Source of the DNA: Tellurirhabdus rosea
GTDB lineage: Bacteria; Bacteroidota; Bacteroidia; Cytophagales; Spirosomataceae
NCBI RefSeq assembly: GCF_026278345.1
Contig: NZ_CP111085.1
Location: 3,489,501 to 3,553,500, forward strand
Direction of reading: 5' to 3'
DNA: 64,000 nt
Shown here: positions 3,582 through 38,029 of the stretch, piece after piece
Layout of the letters: the number at the start of each line of letters is the position of its first letter
How positions within the stretch are numbered: the stretch's first letter is position 1
Translations under genes and position numbers: made by a program
Notes under the pieces: generated by a model
Seen by the model: only the letters and a program-made list of their open reading frames with translations
Told to the model about the DNA's origin: nothing
Database searches by the model: none

Positions 3582-4472
3582 ATGAACCTGAAGAAACCAA
3601 AATTTGACGCCGCCAGCTTCCGGTTTGAAGGAGGCCGCACCCGGCTGTCCCTGCGCGATACGCCCACCCGCATCGAGCCGTTCTACCGGGACGAGGCCGA
3701 CCGGACCCGCCAACTCGATGCCCTGACGGCCCGGATCGACCAGCGCCAGAACGAGATGCACGCCGACGAACATTACGGTCTGCTGGTGCTCTTTCAGGCG
3801 ATGGATGCGGGCGGCAAGGACAGCAGTATCCGGCATGTGTTCTCGGGCGTCAATCCGTCCCGGTTTCGCGTGGGGGAGTTCAAAAAACCCAGCAAGCAGG
3901 ACCTGGCGCACGATTTCCTCTGGCGTTTCTGGAAAGAACTGCCCGAGCGGGGCTATATCGGCATTTTCAACCGGACGTATTACGAAGAAGTGCTGGTCGA
4001 AAAAGTGCACCGCGAACGCCTGACCGAAAGCTCACTGCCGCCGAATCTGGTCGCCAATCCGGACGAACTCTGGAAAGAACGCTACCTCGACATCCGGAAT
4101 TTTGAGGATTACCTTTTCCGAAACGGCTTTCTCCTGATCAAGATTTACCTGCACGTGGACAAGCAGGAGCAGGGCCAGCGGCTCATCAACCGCCTGCGCG
4201 ATACCGAGAAGCAATGGAAGCTGAGCGAGAGCGATCTGGAAGAACGGCAGCATTGGGATGAGTACATCCAGGCTTACGAAGAGGCCATCAACGCCACGGC
4301 GACCAAACGCTGTCCCTGGTACATCATTCCCAGCGACGACCGCGCCAACCAGCAACTCATCATCGCCCGGATCGTGACCGAAGTCCTCGACTCGCTGCCG
4401 ATCGAGTTTCCCACCCGCGACGACAAAGAAGCCCGCCGCCTCATCCGGGAAATTGAAAGACAAGACAAATGA
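3582..4472 (+). CDS. Polyphosphate kinase 2 family phosphotransferase (copy 2)
   Basis: Paralog of the preceding gene: same Walker A-like FQAMDAGGKDSSI, FSGVNPS, Walker B-like FNRTYYEEV and the C-terminal WYIIPSDDRANQ segment. The start at 3582 (MNLKKPKFD) is preferred to the in-frame ATG at 3546 because the extra 12 residues have no counterpart in copy 1. The pair is probably one transcription unit. Two adjacent PPK2 copies suggest division of labour, for instance one AMP- and one ADP-phosphorylating enzyme (inference). The TGA stop directly abuts a heptamer-based inverted repeat (4473-4599). Confidence 0.9.
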   Translation: MNLKKPKFDAASFRFEGGRTRLSLRDTPTRIEPFYRDEADRTRQLDALTARIDQRQNEMHADEHYGLLVLFQAMDAGGKDSSIRHVFSGVNPSRFRVGEFKKPSKQDLAHDFLWRFWKELPERGYIGIFNRTYYEEVLVEKVHRERLTESSLPPNLVANPDELWKERYLDIRNFEDYLFRNGFLLIKIYLHVDKQEQGQRLINRLRDTEKQWKLSESDLEERQHWDEYIQAYEEAINATATKRCPWYIIPSDDRANQQLIIARIVTEVLDSLPIEFPTRDDKEARRLIREIERQDK

Positions 4473-11397: not shown

Positions 11398-11473
11398 GCG
11401 AAAGTAGCTCAGCTGGTAGAGCGCGACCTTGCCAAGGTCGAGGTCGCGGGTTCGAACCCCGTCTTTCGCTCCA
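11398..11473 (+). tRNA. tRNA-Gly (GCC), with encoded CCA
   Basis: Acceptor arms GCGAAAG/CTTTCGC, anticodon stem CGACC/GGTCG with loop TTGCCAA (anticodon GCC), T-arm GCGGGTTCGAACCCCG and a CCA end. From 11410 on, the gene is part of the 195-bp repeat that is duplicated at 37835. Confidence 0.97.
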
Positions 11474-11474
11474 A

Positions 11475-11498
11475 GGCACCGGCAACGGTGCCTTTTTT
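11475..11498 (+). terminator. Terminator between tRNA-Gly and tRNA-Leu
   Basis: GGCACCG, loop GCAA, CGGTGCC and six T. A full intrinsic terminator between two tRNAs implies attenuated read-through to tRNA-Leu or a separate promoter for it. Confidence 0.85.
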
Positions 11499-11517
11499 GT
11501 GCCAGTGCATTCCGCAC

Positions 11518-11603
11518 GCCGGGATGGCGGAATAGGTAGACGCGCAGGACTTAAAATCCTGTGGGCCGTAAAGCCCGTACGGGTTCGATTCCCGTTCCCG
11601 GTA
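11518..11603 (+). tRNA. tRNA-Leu (UAA), left copy
   Basis: 86 nt with acceptor arms GCCGGGA/TCCCGGT, anticodon stem-loop CAGGA-CTTAAAA-TCCTG (anticodon TAA), a long variable arm and the T-arm ACGGGTTCGATTCCCGT. CCA is not encoded. An identical copy lies at 37943-38028. Confidence 0.95.
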
Positions 11604-11611
11604 CTATTTTG

Positions 11612-22052: not shown

Positions 22053-22325
22053 TCGCACGTCTTAAGGCCTTACCCTTGTAAGCGTCGTGAACTCAGGATA
22101 CCCGACACCCTTCACCGGAGGCGGTCTTCATCAATCCGGGTAACACCGTTCACTCTTAAACAAGCCACTTTATGATTCCATTACGAATCATCAGCCGCGG
22201 GCCACCCACCCACGAGCCGATGGATGGCGATAGCCTTACCTGAAAAGTCCTGCCACACGCTTTGCGATGAGGGCACAGAACGCACGTCTTTCTCAAAGAC
22301 TCATTACAAAACTTTTATTCCTTTC

Positions 22326-24332
22326 ATGAGCCCAGCTCAAACTTCCGCCCCTGCGGAGCTCCCAAATACACCGGCCTCTGCCCGGTTCTCCCTCTTTACT
22401 GGCCCAGACCAGCCCGCCGCGTCCCTCTCCTTGGAGGAGATCATTTACCGCATCCGAGGCGGAATCTACCATGATGCCATCGCAAGCCTTCGCCGGAGGC
22501 CGCTCCCGGCGAACGACCTCGATTCGGCATCGCCGCAACTTCCGGCCTTCGCCGTATCACGACGCTATGAATCCAGTAGCGAACTTCGGAACATGGCCGT
22601 CTACACTGGCTTTCTTCTGCTGGACCTGCCCCTAAGTTCTCATCCGGCTGAAGGGGAGCGTATACGCCATAGCGTTAACGAGCAGCCGGAGACAGTCGCC
22701 AGTTTTCAAAGCGCCTGCGGACAGTATCTGCAGGTAATCCTGTGGACGAACTCTCCGCAATCAGCGCACAAGGAACGGTACCGTGCCGCCTGTGATTGGT
22801 TGCTACGTCTGACGGACGTTGAACCGGGCCGGGAGGCAGATGACCCCAAGCGCCGGTGTGTGCTCTCCGCTGACCCTGCCGCGCACTTCAACCCTGCCGC
22901 CGTGCCTCTTGCCCCCCAAGCGGCACGCGTCTTCACCGACCATTTTGGGATTACCTCCAACAAGGAGGCTGCAAAAGATGCAAACGCTACAAAACCGGCT
23001 GAGAAGGAAGTCAACAACCGGGAAACCACGCCCTGCATACCGGATTGGGTCTATGAGGAATTACCCCCCTTTCTGAAAGAGCTCTGCGCTCCCTTTGATC
23101 CGGGCCGGGAGCGGGATGTGGTGCTCATTTCCGCCCTGCTGGTTGTCAGTGCCTGTCTGGAAGTAAAGGCTGAATTTCGGGGAAGTACCCACTGGCCCAA
23201 CCTGATGGGTATGGTCTTAGCTCCTCCCGCGTCAGGTAAAGGCCGGTTGGCCCAAAGCCGAAGGCTGGCCGAAGGGTTTCATGGGCAACGTCTGGAGGTG
23301 TATAAGCAGCAGAAAGCCGACTACCAGCGAGCCTTGAGACGGCACAAAAAAGCCGAACAGGAGGGCGACTGGGATGCAGAAGTTGACCTGCCTCAGAAAC
23401 CCCAAATGCGCAAATTCCTCATCCCCGGCGACAGCACCAGTGCGTCACTCCAAGAAGATCTGTTGCCGGGTGAGTCCCACCTGATTCACGAATCGGAGAC
23501 CGATACACTGGGCAAGGCATTCAAGGCCGGAAACGGTAACTACTCGGCAGAACTGCGTAAGGCCTTTCATCATGAAGCTATTTCTGTCGCCCGCAAAACT
23601 GACGCCTATGCGAAGGAAATCGTCAATCCGCGCCTTTCCGTTGCCTTAGCCGGAACACCGGATCAACTCTTCGGCCTCATCAAGGCCACCGAAGACGGCC
23701 TGTTCAGCCGGTTTATCTTCTACTACTTCGACGAGGCGCAAGAGTATCAGGACGCTGTTCCTGCAGGTGCTCAGTCGGTTAATGCCGAACAGCACTTTGA
23801 TCTCTTCGCTCAAAAGCTGGAGGCATTGGCCCAGCGCATCGCCGAGGCGCCTACCACGTTTGACATGACCGCAGAGCAGTACGAGCGGTACAACCGACGC
23901 TTCAAGACGTTAACCAAGCGGGCCCAGCTCATGGATAAAGGGGCAGACGGAGTCATTCGGCGCTTCGGAGTGATTGTATACCGAATCATGATGATTCTCA
24001 CTACGCTGCGGATGGCCGAGCAGGAAATCACCGACTGTCGCCTCGTCAGTAACGACGTGGACTACCGGGTTGCCGAGGGCTTGACCGATGTGCTGCTGGA
24101 GCATACCCTGACGGTTTTTAACCGGCTTCCCAAAACAGGCGCTCGGGTGAATAAAGCGTTACTCCGGTTCTTCGATAGCCTGCCCAGCGGATCGGTATCT
24201 CGTAAAGAAGCGGTCGACATCGGCATGCAAATACTCCCCGTTGCAGTACGAAGCATTGGTGCTTACCTACAGAGCCTAGTAGATATGGGTCTGCTTCAGA
24301 AAACCAGACATGGCCACTATGAAAAAACATAG
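22326..24332 (+). CDS. BT4734/VirE N-terminal plus DUF3987 primase-helicase-like protein
   Basis: Large protein (668 aa from 22326; an in-frame ATG at 22224 would add 34 residues of low quality). The N-terminal third resembles the BT4734-like domain (degenerate primase fold: YTGFLLLDLP, then QVILWTNSPQ). The C-terminal two thirds match DUF3987: an ATP-binding loop APPASGKGRLAQ, the RKTDAYAKEIVNPRLSVALAG segment and ATEDGLFSRFIFYYF. Such proteins serve replication of Bacteroidota mobile elements. The next gene starts about 120 bp later and is polymerase-like, which strengthens a replication role. A TGCAAA 9-bp-spaced repeat lies within the gene at 22970. Confidence 0.85.
   Translation: MSPAQTSAPAELPNTPASARFSLFTGPDQPAASLSLEEIIYRIRGGIYHDAIASLRRRPLPANDLDSASPQLPAFAVSRRYESSSELRNMAVYTGFLLLDLPLSSHPAEGERIRHSVNEQPETVASFQSACGQYLQVILWTNSPQSAHKERYRAACDWLLRLTDVEPGREADDPKRRCVLSADPAAHFNPAAVPLAPQAARVFTDHFGITSNKEAAKDANATKPAEKEVNNRETTPCIPDWVYEELPPFLKELCAPFDPGRERDVVLISALLVVSACLEVKAEFRGSTHWPNLMGMVLAPPASGKGRLAQSRRLAEGFHGQRLEVYKQQKADYQRALRRHKKAEQEGDWDAEVDLPQKPQMRKFLIPGDSTSASLQEDLLPGESHLIHESETDTLGKAFKAGNGNYSAELRKAFHHEAISVARKTDAYAKEIVNPRLSVALAGTPDQLFGLIKATEDGLFSRFIFYYFDEAQEYQDAVPAGAQSVNAEQHFDLFAQKLEALAQRIAEAPTTFDMTAEQYERYNRRFKTLTKRAQLMDKGADGVIRRFGVIVYRIMMILTTLRMAEQEITDCRLVSNDVDYRVAEGLTDVLLEHTLTVFNRLPKTGARVNKALLRFFDSLPSGSVSRKEAVDIGMQILPVAVRSIGAYLQSLVDMGLLQKTRHGHYEKT
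22970..22996 (+). repeat. TGCAAA nonamer repeats, set 1
   Basis: TGCAAAAGA, TGCAAACGC and TACAAAACC in tandem 9-bp steps, inside the DUF3987 gene. Same unit as 24933-24968 and, inverted, 26100-26131. Confidence 0.5.
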
Positions 24333-27758: not shown

Positions 27759-28733
27759 CTATGTTTTAAAACCTTTCTCTTTTGCTAAATAAACTATAGT
27801 TGAAAAAGAAATGTCATTCACACGTCGGTTCACATAACAGTAGTTAAGAAGCTTAATACTCTCATCCTCATTATGAATCTGGTTGTCAAGCTCACATAGT
27901 CTTAAAAAATATTTTTCCCCAATATCATAAGTGAATGTATTTGCGATTGCAAGAGCAACTCTAAACCAACTGTCATAATTGCTTGTTATAGAAACTTTAT
28001 TTTTATACAAATACTTTATTATTTTAGCTAATATTTCCCTATCGCTTGGCTTATTTCTATTAGATGGGTCAAAAAAAAGAGCTGGTTGCAACTTTATACC
28101 ACTTTTATCAATTTCAGGGGATATCGAGGGTCGGCTTACTATTGTTGTTTCAAACGGAAAATCATAATCCTTATAATTATATGGTATACACATTTTTTTA
28201 ACTATCATTCTATCATCATAAGAAATTATACAAAGTCTACATATGTCGCTCCCACTTTTATCTATCTCTATATTATGCTTATATCTAAAATAGTAATTTA
28301 AAGATTGAAAGCATTGTCTATGTTCATTTTCACTACTTGAGACAGGTATCAATACTTTTATTCCATGTCCAGAAGGAGAAAACCAAGCCGCCAAAACGTG
28401 GTTATCGAGAGACAAGGAGGTCTTTACAAGAGCCATTTGCTCGGTTTCTAGATTGTCAATATCAATTATAACTAGTTGTGAGTACGATTGCAAGTTTTCT
28501 TTTTTATGTGCGCCTCTAAATACTCCGCTGAAAGTATAAGCAGGCAAAGTTGCTTTGTATTTTCTGTAAGCTACTGAGTCCCCGCTTCTAACAAACTGCC
28601 TGCAAGCTTGTATCTCCCTAAAATACTTACCGTTTGATAAATCATCCAAAGCCTCCTTCAACGTAACTACTTCATTATCAATGGAGTATAAATTTCTAAA
28701 TTTTGAAATATTAATTTTGTCGAAAAAAATCAT
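27759..28733 (-). CDS. Stand-alone BT4734/AEP-type primase-like protein
   Basis: A 324-aa protein with the signature of the BT4734/VirE N-terminal family, a form of the archaeo-eukaryotic primase fold. An Asp-x-Asp motif VIIDIDN carries D91/D93, FSPSGHGIKVLIP is at 118-130 (SxH-type motif, H123), and SDICRLCIISYD is near 162. The C-terminal 90 residues (ILAKIIKYLYKN, WFRVALAIANTF) look like a PriCT-type helical domain. All three catalytic positions appear kept, unlike many VirE-like relatives. It is divergent from the reverse transcriptase gene with a 95-bp gap, so the two probably share control. AT-rich. Confidence 0.78.
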   Translation of the reverse strand: MIFFDKINISKFRNLYSIDNEVVTLKEALDDLSNGKYFREIQACRQFVRSGDSVAYRKYKATLPAYTFSGVFRGAHKKENLQSYSQLVIIDIDNLETEQMALVKTSLSLDNHVLAAWFSPSGHGIKVLIPVSSSENEHRQCFQSLNYYFRYKHNIEIDKSGSDICRLCIISYDDRMIVKKMCIPYNYKDYDFPFETTIVSRPSISPEIDKSGIKLQPALFFDPSNRNKPSDREILAKIIKYLYKNKVSITSNYDSWFRVALAIANTFTYDIGEKYFLRLCELDNQIHNEDESIKLLNYCYVNRRVNDISFSTIVYLAKEKGFKT

Positions 28734-28776
28734 GAGATAACTTGATTAAGGTTTACAAGTAACGATATATTTGACG

Positions 28777-28912
28777 GTGGAGTAGCGAAGGGTGTAGGTG
28801 ACTACATCAAGTTGAATCGGTTCAATATATGGGTTTTGCGGTACCTCCGTATGTTATACATCGCATGATAAATATGTCAGTATCTTTGCAGATTTCCAAT
28901 TCCGCTACTCCA
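28777..28912. repeat. Inverted repeat around the start of the reverse transcriptase gene
   Basis: GTGGAGTAGCG (28777-28787) is exactly complementary to CGCTACTCCAC (28902-28912), enclosing 114 nt. A second inverted pair AACTTGAT / ATCAAGTT lies at about 28740-28747 and 28805-28813. It could form a structured leader or non-coding RNA. The right arm lies within the first codons of the RT frame. Confidence 0.6.
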
Positions 28913-30709
28913 CATTTAAAAAATATAGTTGATTTTAAGTTGGAAGACTATTTTACTGAAAAAAATATAGTTGACCTCTTAATAAAGTATAGGATAAAGG
29001 CTGCGTCTCAAAGGCATAAGCATCATTTAATGAGAAATATAAGTTCTCATGAATTGGCAAAAAGCAGGCTAGAAAACATCCCTCCTGATATACAAGAAAT
29101 TATCGCATCGCTTCCACCTAGAAGGCAATGGAGAAGGCCAGATCAGAAGAATAGAAAAATTATTAATAATTCGCAAAGTATTAGTATACTATCCATCAAG
29201 CGATGTATCTATTATACAAAGTATAATGTCAGGAATAACAGAGAAGTGATGCCTAATTGGTTGATTAAATTAAATAAAATAGTTGAAGAGGTAAAAGAAA
29301 GAACCACCCAAATAGATTATATAATAAAAGAGCCTGTTATAAAACCTGTTAAAAAAGAGGATCACAAATCTTGCAGAGCTTGTAGGCCCCTATCAGTTTA
29401 CAGCTTAGTAGATAGAATTATCATTAGTTTAACTGCACGATATTTTATCGATTTATGTGATCCATACTTCCTCAATAACTCATATGCATTTAGATCTACT
29501 AGGTTAAAAGGAGAAGTTGAGGTTGCTAACCATCATTTAGTAATCAGAGATGTAAATAAATATCGGAAAGGTTTTGATTTGGAATCACTTTGGGTTGCAG
29601 AATGTGATATTAGAAAATTTTTTGATTGCGTTAATCATGACGTAGCAAAGTCTACTCTTGACAAATTTTTAAATGAAAATAATTTAAATATTGATGTAAA
29701 TGCAAAAAGAATTTTTTATAAATATCTTGACTCATATTCTTTCAATTACAATGTATTACCTCTTAACGACTCCGGTTTTTTTAAGGACAAGAATCTAGGT
29801 GATTGTTTCTTTGAGTGGCATGAAGAAGAATTATTAGATAAGTTCTATAGAAGTCAGCCTGTGCATGCCTCTGATAAAAAACAAACATCTATAGTTGATA
29901 GAGTGGGCATCCCTCAAGGTGGGGCTCTATCTTGCTTTATTTCTAATTTAATTTTACATAGTGCAGATTTAGCTATTCAAAAACTTGAGTTAAATAATAA
30001 TTTATTTTATGCCAGATATTGTGATGACATGATTATCATTCATCCAGATAAGGACGTTTGTGCTAGAGCCCTTAATGAGTATAAAAACTGCGTTTTAGAA
30101 AACAAATTATTAATTCATGAGCCTGAAGAAGCATCAATATATTCAAGAAATTTTTGGAAAACAAAGTCAAAGAAGCCGTATAAGTGGGCTAAATATAAAT
30201 TTTCTTTAGATAGCGTACCTTGGTTATCTTTTGTTGGGTATCAGTTAAACTATGATGGACAGATAAGAATTAGAAAAAAATCACTTGATAAAGAAATTCA
30301 TAAACATAAAAAAGAATTTAAAGAAGTTCTTCGAGCTCTGGGACAGTTCTCAGGGAGCGAGATGAATATTAATGATGTTTCAAGAAAAACTTTGCGTCAG
30401 CATATTCATGCATTAGAAAGCCGGTACGTTAGCATGTCGGTAGGACGCGTTAAACTTCACAGACCTAATCAAGTGCATGGACTTTGCTGGACTAATGGCT
30501 TTAAGAGTTTAAGTGATAATCCAATTTTGCGATCACAGTTAAAAAAGTTAGATAAGAGCAGAGGCAGACATGTTTACTTACTTAAAAAAAAATTAGCACA
30601 ATTGACCATCGCATCCACCAATAGGGAATTTAGAAAGAATATAAAATTTTATGGCGCGCCGTTTAGCTACTATGGGTTTCTGATTAGAAAAGGGTCAGTA
30701 ATAGATTGA
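28829..30709 (+). CDS. Reverse transcriptase of the unknown-group/defence type
   Basis: Up to 626 aa. RT motifs in order are RPLSVYSLVDRI (motif 1-2), WVAECDIRKFFDCVNHDV with catalytic D260, VGIPQGGALSCFISNLI at about 359, YARYCDDMIII with D399/D400, and LSFVGYQLNYDGQIRIRKKS (motif 7). The YCDD box differs from the YADD of most retron and intron RTs. There is no maturase or endonuclease domain, no group II intron RNA that I can see, and no VTG motif of retrons. It therefore best fits the unassigned UG/DRT classes. The true start is uncertain: ATGs at 28829, 28865 and 28874. Divergent primase-like gene; AT-rich. Confidence 0.85.
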   Translation: MGFAVPPYVIHRMINMSVSLQISNSATPHLKNIVDFKLEDYFTEKNIVDLLIKYRIKAASQRHKHHLMRNISSHELAKSRLENIPPDIQEIIASLPPRRQWRRPDQKNRKIINNSQSISILSIKRCIYYTKYNVRNNREVMPNWLIKLNKIVEEVKERTTQIDYIIKEPVIKPVKKEDHKSCRACRPLSVYSLVDRIIISLTARYFIDLCDPYFLNNSYAFRSTRLKGEVEVANHHLVIRDVNKYRKGFDLESLWVAECDIRKFFDCVNHDVAKSTLDKFLNENNLNIDVNAKRIFYKYLDSYSFNYNVLPLNDSGFFKDKNLGDCFFEWHEEELLDKFYRSQPVHASDKKQTSIVDRVGIPQGGALSCFISNLILHSADLAIQKLELNNNLFYARYCDDMIIIHPDKDVCARALNEYKNCVLENKLLIHEPEEASIYSRNFWKTKSKKPYKWAKYKFSLDSVPWLSFVGYQLNYDGQIRIRKKSLDKEIHKHKKEFKEVLRALGQFSGSEMNINDVSRKTLRQHIHALESRYVSMSVGRVKLHRPNQVHGLCWTNGFKSLSDNPILRSQLKKLDKSRGRHVYLLKKKLAQLTIASTNREFRKNIKFYGAPFSYYGFLIRKGSVID

Positions 30710-31801: not shown

Positions 31802-32488
31802 ATGGACCTAAAAGACTACATAGCAATTGCTGCGTTGCTTATTTCTATCACGTCCTTAGTAATAACCTTACTACAAAAGAGAAAAGAAAATTACAGGACT
31901 ATAAGAAAGAATTTAAGCGACACACTAGAAAGTGTGGCTAAAATAGCCATTGAAACAACAAAACTCCGACAAACAAATGATGAATCCGATGCAGTTGTTG
32001 ACCTTAGGCGTGCTTACAATACCCAGAGAAGAGTTTTGATAGTCCACGCTGATTTTCTTGTAACAGAGAATGACGAGATTGTAACAGAAATTGATTGCAA
32101 TATACTTGCAACAGCACTTATCAGTATAGGCGATTTGGAAAGAGCTGAGCATTATTGGAGCAAAACTATCGAAAAATCGCAGAACGATTCTATCAAGCAC
32201 ATGAACTTAAGAGGATATGCAAGGTTTCTTTTTTTGCAGGGACAATTTCAATTAGGCAGAAGCAAATATGAAGATGCTTTAAGGTTAAAGCTTGCTGACA
32301 ACGATTATAATCGAAGATTAGTAACCGATACATGCATTTTGTGGGCTAAAGTGGAAAGAGAACATGGAAACATTTCAGAATTTAGAAGGCTAGTGGGTCT
32401 TGCACATGGATACTGCTCAAGAATTGGGAACATGACAATGAGAGATGAGATGGAAAAACAAATCAATCTACTTGAACCAACAACATAG
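31802..32488 (+). CDS. Membrane-anchored TPR-like protein
   Basis: A 228-aa product not assigned to a family. One N-terminal transmembrane segment (IAIAALLISITSLVITLL, residues 8-25) is followed by a cytoplasmic helical region. That region includes two tetratricopeptide-like hairpins (ALISIGDLERAEHYWSKTIE and YARFLFLQGQFQLGRSKYED). Such single-helix TPR proteins often scaffold or sense other proteins. It is the last gene of the AT-rich block with the RT/primase pair, but the IS5 relic separates them, so linkage is uncertain. Confidence 0.65.
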   Translation: MDLKDYIAIAALLISITSLVITLLQKRKENYRTIRKNLSDTLESVAKIAIETTKLRQTNDESDAVVDLRRAYNTQRRVLIVHADFLVTENDEIVTEIDCNILATALISIGDLERAEHYWSKTIEKSQNDSIKHMNLRGYARFLFLQGQFQLGRSKYEDALRLKLADNDYNRRLVTDTCILWAKVEREHGNISEFRRLVGLAHGYCSRIGNMTMRDEMEKQINLLEPTT

Positions 32489-36442: not shown

Positions 36443-37732
36443 TCATCTGTTTTTGCTTTCCAATGGGATAGGGGATTCCGCATCTGGAAAAATGTCTACC
36501 ATTGCGCGGTTCATCGAGGTGTGGTCAATCTTGGCGAAGTACTGCTCCGTGATGGCAAGCCTGCTATGGCCAAGCAGCTTGGAGATGTCGTAGAGGCTCA
36601 CCCGTTTCCGACCGTTGTCAGCGAACGAATGGCGGGCGGTGTGAAAGGTCACGCGCTTGGTGATGCCCGCCCGCTCTGCCACCTTCTTCAGGTACTTATT
36701 GATGAGGGCGTTCTTGCGGGAGATTTCCACCTTGAAGGAGCGGTCATCAAGGAAGTCCGTCTTGGGGTTGAGGATGGGAAAGACCAGCGCCGTGTCGCCC
36801 ATCGCACGACGGTGTTCATATAGGTTGAGGATCGCCAGCGCCTTCTTGGGCAGAAGGACGGTATGATACTTACCGGTCTTCTGCATGTCGTAGCTGACAT
36901 ACACCCGCCCGTCCGGCTGCTGAACGATGTTAGACCAGCGCAGCGATGCCACGTCGCTGAAGCGAACCCCTGCCGAGTAATAGGCGAACATCCAATAGTT
37001 TCGGGTGTGCCATATAATGGTGTTTAAGGCCAGCTCCACCGACGCGAAGCTTTCGACTTCATCATCCGCCAAACGGTCTTTGCGGGGCTTGCCTTCCTTA
37101 ATGCGGTACATCCGGAATGGGTTCATGTCGTATCCGATCACACCGTGGCGTATGGCGTGGTTAATGACGGCTTTGACCTTGGACAGGTTAATGTCCACCG
37201 TAGTGTCGTTGTTGAGGTAACTCCGACGTAGAAATACCTCAAAGCGATTGACGAAATCCAGCGTGATTTCGGCGAATGTGACGTCTTTATGCCCGGCAAA
37301 CTCTTCTACCTTATTGAGGATCGTGCGTGTATTCTTGCGCGTGTTGAATGGCTTGTCTTTGAGATAGTACTCGTATGCATATTCGATAAATGTGGGAACC
37401 TTGGTAGGGTTTCTCTCCCCCCGCAAGATTTTCATGACGTCTTCCGCACCCATTTGAGGACTGTCGAGCTTAAGCTGCTTGAGCTGACCGAGGATGTCGT
37501 GCAGCCGGAGGTTTTTGCGGGTGGCGTCTTCGTCTTTACGCCTAACTTCTTCCTTTTTTCCATCCCACCATTCTTTCCGTACGTCGATCTCGGTGTAGAT
37601 TCGCTTTGACCGGCGGTTCTCCGTGATGCGGAGTAGGATAGCATGTTCGCCACTTCGCTTGGGCTTGTTACCCAGTTCTAGTCGGAACGATAGACCGGAC
37701 CGCAGCGGGGTTGGGTTACGTTTTTGATTCAT
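36443..37732 (-). CDS. Tyrosine recombinase / integrase of the island
   Basis: 429 aa, Bacteroidota-type phage integrase with an N-terminal arm-binding domain (residues 1-100), a SAM-like core-binding domain (about 110-215) and a catalytic domain. Catalytic residues in this numbering: R257 in SAGVRFSDVASL, H364 and R367 in FHTARHSF, H389 in LLGHSRL and nucleophile Y398 in ITEQYFAK. All are present, so it should be active. The start MNQKRNPT (37732) is preferred to 37762. The gene reads away from attR, and its upstream region holds the right arm-type repeat (37766-37790), so integrase binding may repress its own promoter (inference). Confidence 0.95.
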   Translation of the reverse strand: MNQKRNPTPLRSGLSFRLELGNKPKRSGEHAILLRITENRRSKRIYTEIDVRKEWWDGKKEEVRRKDEDATRKNLRLHDILGQLKQLKLDSPQMGAEDVMKILRGERNPTKVPTFIEYAYEYYLKDKPFNTRKNTRTILNKVEEFAGHKDVTFAEITLDFVNRFEVFLRRSYLNNDTTVDINLSKVKAVINHAIRHGVIGYDMNPFRMYRIKEGKPRKDRLADDEVESFASVELALNTIIWHTRNYWMFAYYSAGVRFSDVASLRWSNIVQQPDGRVYVSYDMQKTGKYHTVLLPKKALAILNLYEHRRAMGDTALVFPILNPKTDFLDDRSFKVEISRKNALINKYLKKVAERAGITKRVTFHTARHSFADNGRKRVSLYDISKLLGHSRLAITEQYFAKIDHTSMNRAMVDIFPDAESPIPLESKNR

Positions 37733-37765
37733 GGCAGAAAGGGGCTGCCACCCGAAGATCAATTT

Positions 37766-37834: not shown

Positions 37835-37898
37835 CAGCTGGTAGAGCGCGACCTTGCCAAGGTCGAGGTCGCGGGTTCGAACCCCGTCTTTCGCTCCA
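37835..37898 (+). pseudogene. tRNA-Gly fragment lacking the 5' end
   Basis: Identical to tRNA-Gly from its 13th base to CCA, but the preceding bases do not restore the acceptor arm GCGAAAG, so no functional tRNA-Gly can form. It results from the island boundary. Confidence 0.92.
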
Positions 37899-37899
37899 A

Positions 37900-37923
37900 G
37901 GCACCGGCAACGGTGCCTTTTTT
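37900..37923 (+). terminator. Copy of the tRNA-Gly terminator
   Basis: Second copy of the GGCACCG-GCAA-CGGTGCC-T6 hairpin within attR. It would block transcription entering from the island into the right tRNA-Leu copy. Confidence 0.8.
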
Positions 37924-37942
37924 GTGCCAGTGCATTCCGCAC

Positions 37943-38028
37943 GCCGGGATGGCGGAATAGGTAGACGCGCAGGACTTAAAATCCTGTGGGCCGTAAAGCC
38001 CGTACGGGTTCGATTCCCGTTCCCGGTA
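37943..38028 (+). tRNA. tRNA-Leu (UAA), right copy
   Basis: Identical to 11518-11603 and complete in structure. The unit promoter is missing upstream and a terminator (37900-37923) stands directly before it, so expression is doubtful unless a local promoter exists. Confidence 0.9.
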
Positions 38029-38029
38029 C

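Follow-up and report, generated by a model that had tools for sequence, protein, structure and literature searches.

A reverse transcriptase (RT) gene and a primase-like gene face each other in a 64,000-nucleotide stretch of Tellurirhabdus rosea DNA (contig NZ_CP111085.1, positions 3,489,501–3,553,500, forward strand), which is called the window throughout. The stand-alone primase-polymerase gene, of the BT4734/VirE_N type with a PriCT-2-like C-terminus, is on the minus strand (27759–28733, 324 aa), and the RT gene is on the plus strand (28829–30709, 626 aa). Both open reading frames (ORFs) are intact and 95 bp lie between them, as the initial annotation had reported. A structured noncoding RNA, with bounds set by its closing stem, is predicted directly upstream of the RT on the same strand (28775–28914).

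Reverse transcriptase

The RT matches the PADLOC profile RT_UG39 full length, with 575 bits over residues 38–620. The next PADLOC profiles are Drt2 (92 bits), Drt9 (80.5), generic RT (71), UG17 of DRT10 (56.5) and Drt3a (56), and no Drt7 profile is among the best 25 PADLOC matches. In NCBIfam, Drt2 gives 80 bits under a cut-off of 390 and group_II_RT_mat gives 83.5 bits under a cut-off of 300. The RT stays below every curated NCBIfam cut-off for the group II, retron and Drt2/Drt3a families, which agrees with the earlier description of the RT as divergent and without a group II or retron assignment. By profile, the RT is a member of UG39. Its core motifs D260, GIPQGG and YCDD (with D399/D400) are present, as first described. 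The Asp residues and P-Q-G are invariant across 15 aligned UG39 RTs. The invariant positions include D245, Y379, R381, C383, D384 and D385 in alignment numbering, which begins at Met16 and to which 15 is added for ORF numbering. S598 and Y599 (alignment numbering) of a C-terminal PFSY are kept in at least 90% of the 15 rows.

A tree of RTs, which leaves out the split RT of locus L060, unites 18 UG39 rows at 100/99 against 7 Drt2 and 4 group II-like rows. The window RT groups with that of L051 (99/97). In clade A the primase is divergent (6 rows, 92/87), in clade B it is co-directional (9 rows, 78/86) and in clade C it is absent (3 rows, 100/99); clades A and C join at 91/89. With the RT model as query, Foldseek has DRT9 chains in its first six places. 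VIA-align places DGR, G2L4, DRT9 and group II RTs level at Z 21.4–21.7, with DRT9 at 5.1 Å over 424 residues, and DRT2 at Z 17.6 (4.6 Å, 368 residues).

Translation of the RT probably begins downstream of the annotated start at 28829. Because a start codon is present 1–4 codons ahead of a conserved xxYF motif in most relatives, TTG at 28940 is likelier, or ATG at 28874 as in L051. The DNA ahead of the likelier start is the site of the predicted RNA.

Primase-polymerase

The primase matches PADLOC RTasVirE-PriCT2 full length (342.8 bits) and PF08800 with 101.4 bits, above the cut-off of 22.4; PriCT_2 scores 16.8 bits, below its cut-off of 22. D91 and D93, the predicted catalytic residues, do not vary among the 13 aligned primases (an alignment that excludes L060, L070 and L072) and agree with motif I of AEP enzymes, hhhDhD/E, as defined in PMC5862659. 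Also invariant in all 13 are S119-P-S121, G124, K126, D158, G161, D163 and R166-L-C168, of which G161, D163 and R166-L-C168 belong to an SGSDICRLC stretch. D158 and D163 are candidates for the acidic residue of motif III. Motif II is sxH; the window protein has SGH, but the His is not conserved, and S-P-S-x2-G-x-K is invariant instead. Of the primase motifs that had been pointed out earlier, Asp-x-Asp holds across the 13 aligned primases and the SDICR stretch holds in part, whereas the His of SGHG does not.

The structure model of the primase (predicted local distance difference test score, 88) has a loose likeness to AEP polymerases. The best VIA-align match with a sound root-mean-square deviation is the S-2L PrimPol domain (Z 8.2, 3.2 Å, 138 residues). 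CAPP follows at Z 6.1 (4.3 Å, 143 residues), and AsfvPrimPol reaches Z 8.7 but with a deviation of 15.5 Å. Non-polymerases rank close, for example HP0184 at Z 7.3. Foldseek gave no match to the model at E 0.001, and a sequence search of the PDB gave nothing up to E 5. CAPP_B proteins such as DbCAPP, which are CRISPR-associated, are likewise stand-alone VirE_N PrimPols of about 330 aa, mostly of Bacteroidetes (PMC8211822). They differ in that their partners are Cas1–Cas2 (PMC8211822), and the window primase scores 66.5 bits against the CAPP_B cut-off of 200.

Distribution and conservation of the pair

The UG39 profile was searched at E 0.001 in genomes of the order, where 141 of 390 matched, 8 of them with E no higher than 1e-116 and the remaining 133 with E of at least 1.4e-23. 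At E 1e-50 it matched 5 of 395 genomes of the phylum, 4 of 395 of the class, and 2 of 299, 3 of 196, 3 of 160 and 2 of 111 in four further draws; the draws overlap, and each takes in one genome known beforehand. A Mucilaginibacter locus and a Thiospirochaeta plasmid were added. The set holds 19 distinct UG39 loci (the window, L002, L046–L060, L070 and L072), with L003 and L004, whose contigs equal those of L059 and L051 in length, counted as identical to them. Among 20 scanned RT proteins, 12 were Drt2, 5 had the generic RT profile as best match and 3 were the clade C RTs, which are UG39. The Phages collection gave no match at E 1e-20. A scan of Viral_contigs with the RT alignment returned 8 RT relatives at 23–26% identity, of which 2 were classified, with the generic RT profile best, and 6 were not classified. 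One UG39 locus was found in the plasmid collection, L060 (the spirochaete plasmid of Thiospirochaeta, NZ_CP035808; L060 3515–5274), with its RT split over two frames. This plasmid keeps the primase–RNA–RT order, and UG39 thus occurs outside Bacteroidota, as a broken copy.

A primase gene adjoins the RT gene in 16 of the 19 loci, divergently in 6 and co-directionally upstream in 10, and the pair recurs in different neighbourhoods. Distances between RTs are correlated with those between primases (r 0.82; 0 of 5,000 permutations) in 15 of the 16 pairs, L060 being omitted. A search of other genomes for conserved divergent pairs had been proposed; the sequence comparisons show a pair that is conserved, in either orientation, and co-evolving.

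The pair had been put forward as an undescribed module. This does not hold, since PADLOC already lists RT_UG39 and RTasVirE-PriCT2 as DRT-labelled families, and DRT7 (UG10) is a described RT-primase-polymerase fusion (PMC13213688). Placement of the RT in a known group without primase partners had been named as an outcome that would count against a new system; the RT does fall in a catalogued group, but that group has primase partners. VirE_N domains lie near 45–46% of UG28b RTs (Sharifi & Ye 2021, PMC8934634), and UG39 is probably their UG28b, judged from the common partner.

Predicted structured RNA upstream of the RT

A stretch of 134–197 nt with a long closing stem precedes the RT in all 19 loci, whatever the orientation of the primase. 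In the window, the 5′ arm GTGGAGTAGCG (28777–28787) pairs with the 3′ arm CGCTACTCCAC (28903–28913), and the arms are perfect 11-nt inverted repeats. The letters of the stem vary among loci and the pairing stays, as in L002 (GCTAGAGTAGC/GCTACTCTAGC) and L057 (AAAGTTGCC/GGCAACTTT). In a cross-locus pairing test over 18 loci (L072 not included), 5′ and 3′ regions of the same locus scored a mean of 28.2 versus 21.0 with regions of other loci (0 of 20,000 permutations), and the own partner ranked first both ways in 7 of 18 loci. This test replaced a comparison of closing-stem duplex energies with shuffled 5′ parts, which was noisy (z −4.7 to 0.0 over 18 loci).

Minimum free energy (MFE) z-scores average −3.9 over the 19 RNAs (17 below −2) versus −0.4 over 76 segments of RT genes (9 below −2), with bounds chosen by the stem, which favours the RNAs. 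The window RNA has a z-score of −4.0. A covariance model was built from five clade B RNAs, with the window unused. Its best match in the 64 kb is 28773–28918 (E 0.0083; next 1.8), and among 13 unused UG39 loci it finds L059 (0.009), L047 (0.057) and L049 in part (0.53) at the predicted place. Two more sequences in that scan came from the window's own genome and returned the window site. With a second model, of 8 RNAs including that of the window, the four best matches in 11 unused loci are L002 (1.5e-5), L050 (6e-4), L051 (0.008) and L049 (0.22), all at the predicted places. The best E of this model in 23 loci with other RTs (12 Drt2, the rest other or unclassified) is 0.84. In the 5.58-Mb genome of the window, its sole match up to E 5 is the window RNA, itself in the training set. 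No Rfam family was found at the RNA site at E up to 5.

Changes on both sides occur in 19 of 26 pairs among the 8 aligned RNAs, including 8 of 9 pairs of the closing helix and 8 of 9 pairs of helices 2 and 3, which form hairpin P2 (GGTGTAG-GTGA-CTACATC, 28791–28808, plus strand). Paired cells amount to 91.4% versus 69.9% when shuffled and at most 50.3% when slid; the alignment behind these counts was itself fitted to the structure. When MAFFT alignments of clades A and B were folded with RNAalifold, the closing stem alone was recovered. A structure drawn by hand on alignment A3 proved to be out of register and is excluded from the counts.

A promoter-like element, TATATTTG (28766–28773, plus strand), is directed to the RNA and the RT. 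It has the form TAnnTTTG, which we take to be the Bacteroidota-type −7 element. Five of the 6 divergent loci (0.06 expected) carry TAnnTTTG 3–6 nt ahead of the closing stem. The comparison of loci shows a structured RNA, as predicted from sequence, that lies immediately before the RT and keeps its place beside the RT, rather than following the primase, in loci with an inverted primase gene or none.

Candidate template

The conserved element TATGTCAGTAT (28873–28883, plus strand) is the candidate template within the RNA. TCAG[TA]A is found at this position, 53–84 nt ahead of the RT motif, in 14 of the 19 loci. All 14 are among the 16 loci that have a primase, and none of the 3 primase-less loci has it there. 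Its frequency across whole loci is 0.3–1.2 per kb. The window carries TAT-GTCAG-TAT, which resembles the A-B-A′ design of DRT10 templates (PMC12632851). In a shuffle test for A-B-A′ repeats, low p values were obtained for L072 (TATCAG repeats, p<0.0005), L058 (ATTCG repeats, 0.001), L046 (0.015) and L057 (0.044), and for L060 (0.030) through an A-rich run outside the motif; L056 came near (0.065). Two loci without the motif were outside the test. The combined p is 0.0008, resting on few RNAs, and a tandem-repeat template is a lead, not a result. The tandem repeat is clearest in the RNA of L072 (about 4207–4365), which reads TATCAGTATCAGTATCA where the motif lies.

Possible pairing of the loop of the stem just before the template was seen by eye in five clade B RNAs (TCCTC/GAGGA, ACTGTC/GACAGT and TTCTC/GAGAG). 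Helix 4 of the model covers much the same pairs, with 87% of cells paired and 3 of 5 pairs changed on both sides, and this pseudoknot is a lead. A DRT9-type poly-U template was not recognised by eye in the UG39 RNA sequences, and no search aimed at one was made. The conserved CAG (CTG in cDNA) was considered as a primase start and dropped, as the DbCAPP preference 3′-XCC/T-5′ is absent from the predicted repeat.

Carrying island and neighbouring genes

The UG39 pair lies within a 26.4-kb stretch between 195-bp perfect direct repeats. The left repeat (11410–11604, plus strand) comprises the 3′ part of a tRNA-Gly and a tRNA-Leu by tRNA calls, and is 100% identical to the right repeat (37835–38029, plus strand), which is also called with a tRNA-Leu. 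A tyrosine integrase (36443–37762, minus strand; PF00589, 71.5 bits) is encoded at the right end of the island. GC content is 0.32–0.35 at 28–31 kb versus about 0.55 in most of the window, in line with the view of the two genes as AT-rich cargo of an island. The island also encodes a second BT4734-like_N protein, fused to DUF3987 (22224–24332), which is probably the mobile element's own replication primase-helicase. A protein encoded 1.1 kb downstream of the RT (31802–32488) weakly matches TPR profiles, and its N-terminus looks membrane-like by eye. Its match to SLATT_6 is sub-threshold (19.2 bits, cut-off 27.1), and no relatives of it were found at the other 18 UG39 loci.

Some UG39 loci have defence-type neighbours. 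BrxL (BREX) is encoded two genes upstream in L056, and OLD-family proteins are encoded upstream of the RT in L057 (708–2561) and L058 (9544–11304). These two loci also have a common ORF downstream of the RT (L057 4486–5577, L058 6639–7670); it was scanned in L058, where PDDEXK_15 is below cut-off. A type I restriction-modification-like subunit gene, recognised by eye and not scanned, is near 5 of the 19 loci (L046, L049, L050, L058 and L070). Related AAA ATPases (AAA_15/AAA_21) are encoded directly beside the pair in L055 (10606–12303) and L072 (369–2315), and L060 has another ATPase in the same place.

Relation to known systems

DRT2, DRT9, DRT10 and Drt3a are described as RNA-templated (sources include PMC12632851 and PMC13213688). 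DRT10 (UG17) consists of an RT, an RNA and a SLATT protein and makes tandem-repeat cDNA; UG39 pairs with a primase instead of the SLATT protein, the SLATT_6 match downstream of the window RT being the sub-threshold one given above. In both, the structured RNA is comparable in size (137 nt in Eco3DRT10, PMC12632851) and the RT has a C-terminal Ser/Tyr. UG39 may also have an A-B-A′ template after stems; the repeat is not significant in the window. The window RT belongs to another profile family (56.5 bits for UG17 versus 575 for UG39). DRT9 (UG28), which makes poly-dA, consists of an RT and an RNA that lies upstream of it (PMC12483538). UG39 resembles it in the upstream RNA, the best Foldseek matches and the C-terminal Tyr, and differs in profile score (80.5 bits for Drt9 versus 575). 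DRT7 also couples an RT with a primase-polymerase, but it is a single fused protein making protein-templated DNA (preprint evidence cited in PMC13213688), whereas UG39 has two genes, divergent in the window, and a predicted RNA. Relative to the UG39 pair as catalogued, the noncoding RNA is the part added here.

Proposed mechanism

We consider it probable, with moderate confidence, that UG39 is a three-part module, likely for phage defence, in which a structured noncoding RNA, an RT and a stand-alone primase-polymerase act in RNA-templated synthesis. The RNA would be transcribed together with the RT and fold through its closing stem, and the RT would bind it. An internal template, probably around UAUGUCAGUAU, would be copied into cDNA, perhaps repeatedly. 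RNA templating is proposed because the nearest DRT profile families copy RNA. Priming in DRT9 and DRT10 is from a C-terminal Tyr or Ser (for DRT10, PMC12632851), and synthesis in UG39 may be primed from the conserved C-terminal Ser/Tyr in the same way. The primase-polymerase would act on the single-stranded cDNA, most likely by making the complementary strand; its action on the cDNA is suggested because DbCAPP is a DNA-dependent primase and polymerase (PMC8211822). As in other DRTs, phage infection may be the trigger, and the DNA product or the effort of making it may kill the infected cell.

Several points weigh against this interpretation. For the RNA, the cross-locus pairing test is individually weak for L048, L049, L057, L058 and L070, the MFE test and the pair counts carry the biases stated above, and the covariance models miss 10 of 13 (clade B model) and 7 of 11 (second model) unused loci. 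Clade C, L052, L054, L055 and L060 share the closing-stem design alone. For the template, 11 of the 17 RNAs tested, that of the window among them (p 0.95), have no A-B-A′ repeat above chance level. The stem just before the template fails its own test (3,855 of 20,000 permutations in 17 loci; 4,140 of 20,000 in the 14 of clades A and B). For the proteins, the C-terminal PFSY is modelled at low confidence, VIA-align gives DRT9 no edge over DGR, G2L4 or group II RTs, and motif II of the primase has no conserved His. The predicted repeat does not contain the start site that DbCAPP prefers (PMC8211822), and no primase was found in L056–L058 among ORFs of at least 50 aa at E up to 10.

A more specific form of the RNA-templated reading, which we hold only tentatively and think rather doubtful, is a telomerase-plus-primase machine for phage defence. 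The RT would copy a short RNA template into tandem-repeat DNA, and the AEP primase-polymerase would fill in the complement. Telomerase with the Pol-alpha primase is the eukaryotic parallel. The template would read UAUGUCAG for the window and for several relatives, UAUCAG for L072 and AUUCG for the primase-less clade, giving cDNAs of (CTGACATA)n, (CTGATA)n and (CGAAT)n, respectively. The DNA of clade C might serve a nuclease partner instead, since in 2 of its 3 loci the RT lies between an OLD-family gene and a PDDEXK-like ORF.

The stretch before the RT could be a mere regulatory leader, such as an attenuator or an autoregulated 5′ untranslated region, with the RT making DNA untemplated like Abi and Class 1 enzymes. 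Its position directly upstream of the RT frame, which it overlaps in the window, would suit a leader, as would the 7 of 11 unused loci missed by the second covariance model. We nevertheless judge a leader unlikely. Compensatory changes in several helices, and the conserved element with the adjoining L072 and clade C repeats, fit a template RNA better; the profiles and Foldseek matches point to kinship with RNA-templated RTs, and the DRT9 RNA is likewise upstream (PMC12483538).

Somewhat less likely again is a DRT2-like mechanism, in which a long part of the RNA is copied by rolling circle into a gene for a toxic protein and the primase makes the second strand for transcription. Drt2 is the second-best RT profile (92 bits), and every RNA has sub-stretches able to give an endless frame. 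A full-length endless frame is present in 3 of the 19 RNAs, the window's not among them, and long endless sub-stretches are so easily obtained that they weigh little either way.

It is improbable that the primase is a passenger, a mobile element's replication primase beside the RT by chance. The other BT4734-like_N/DUF3987 protein of the island is of a family typical of mobile elements, but the primase has its own PADLOC profile, 16 of 19 loci have it next to the RT, in both orientations and in differing neighbourhoods, its distances correlate with those of the RT, and its catalytic Asp residues are kept in 13 of 13 primases. A DNA-level role of the inverted repeat, as a protein-binding site or transposon end, is scarcely credible: the arms are perfect repeats in the window, but internal helices also keep pairing through changes, and a promoter-like element lies just ahead in 5 of 6 divergent loci.

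Significance

The RT–primase pair was already catalogued, and the predicted structured RNA is the new part. No description of an RNA of UG39 was found in the literature searched, a scope outside which lay subscription papers, most preprints and supplements. The predicted RNA between the genes, overlooked in the initial annotation, changes the likely mechanism. Constructs limited to the two genes as annotated, with the RT taken from its present start, would truncate the RNA and could fail on that account. The predicted RNA makes UG39 directly testable, as it indicates what to clone, what to pull down and which cDNA to expect. The RNA-templated DRTs met in the literature work with the RNA alone (DRT2, DRT9), a second RT (DRT3) or a SLATT protein (DRT10). 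If the proposal is true, an RT that copies RNA and is paired with a dedicated primase-polymerase would add a further route to immune DNA and would bear on how its second strand is made.

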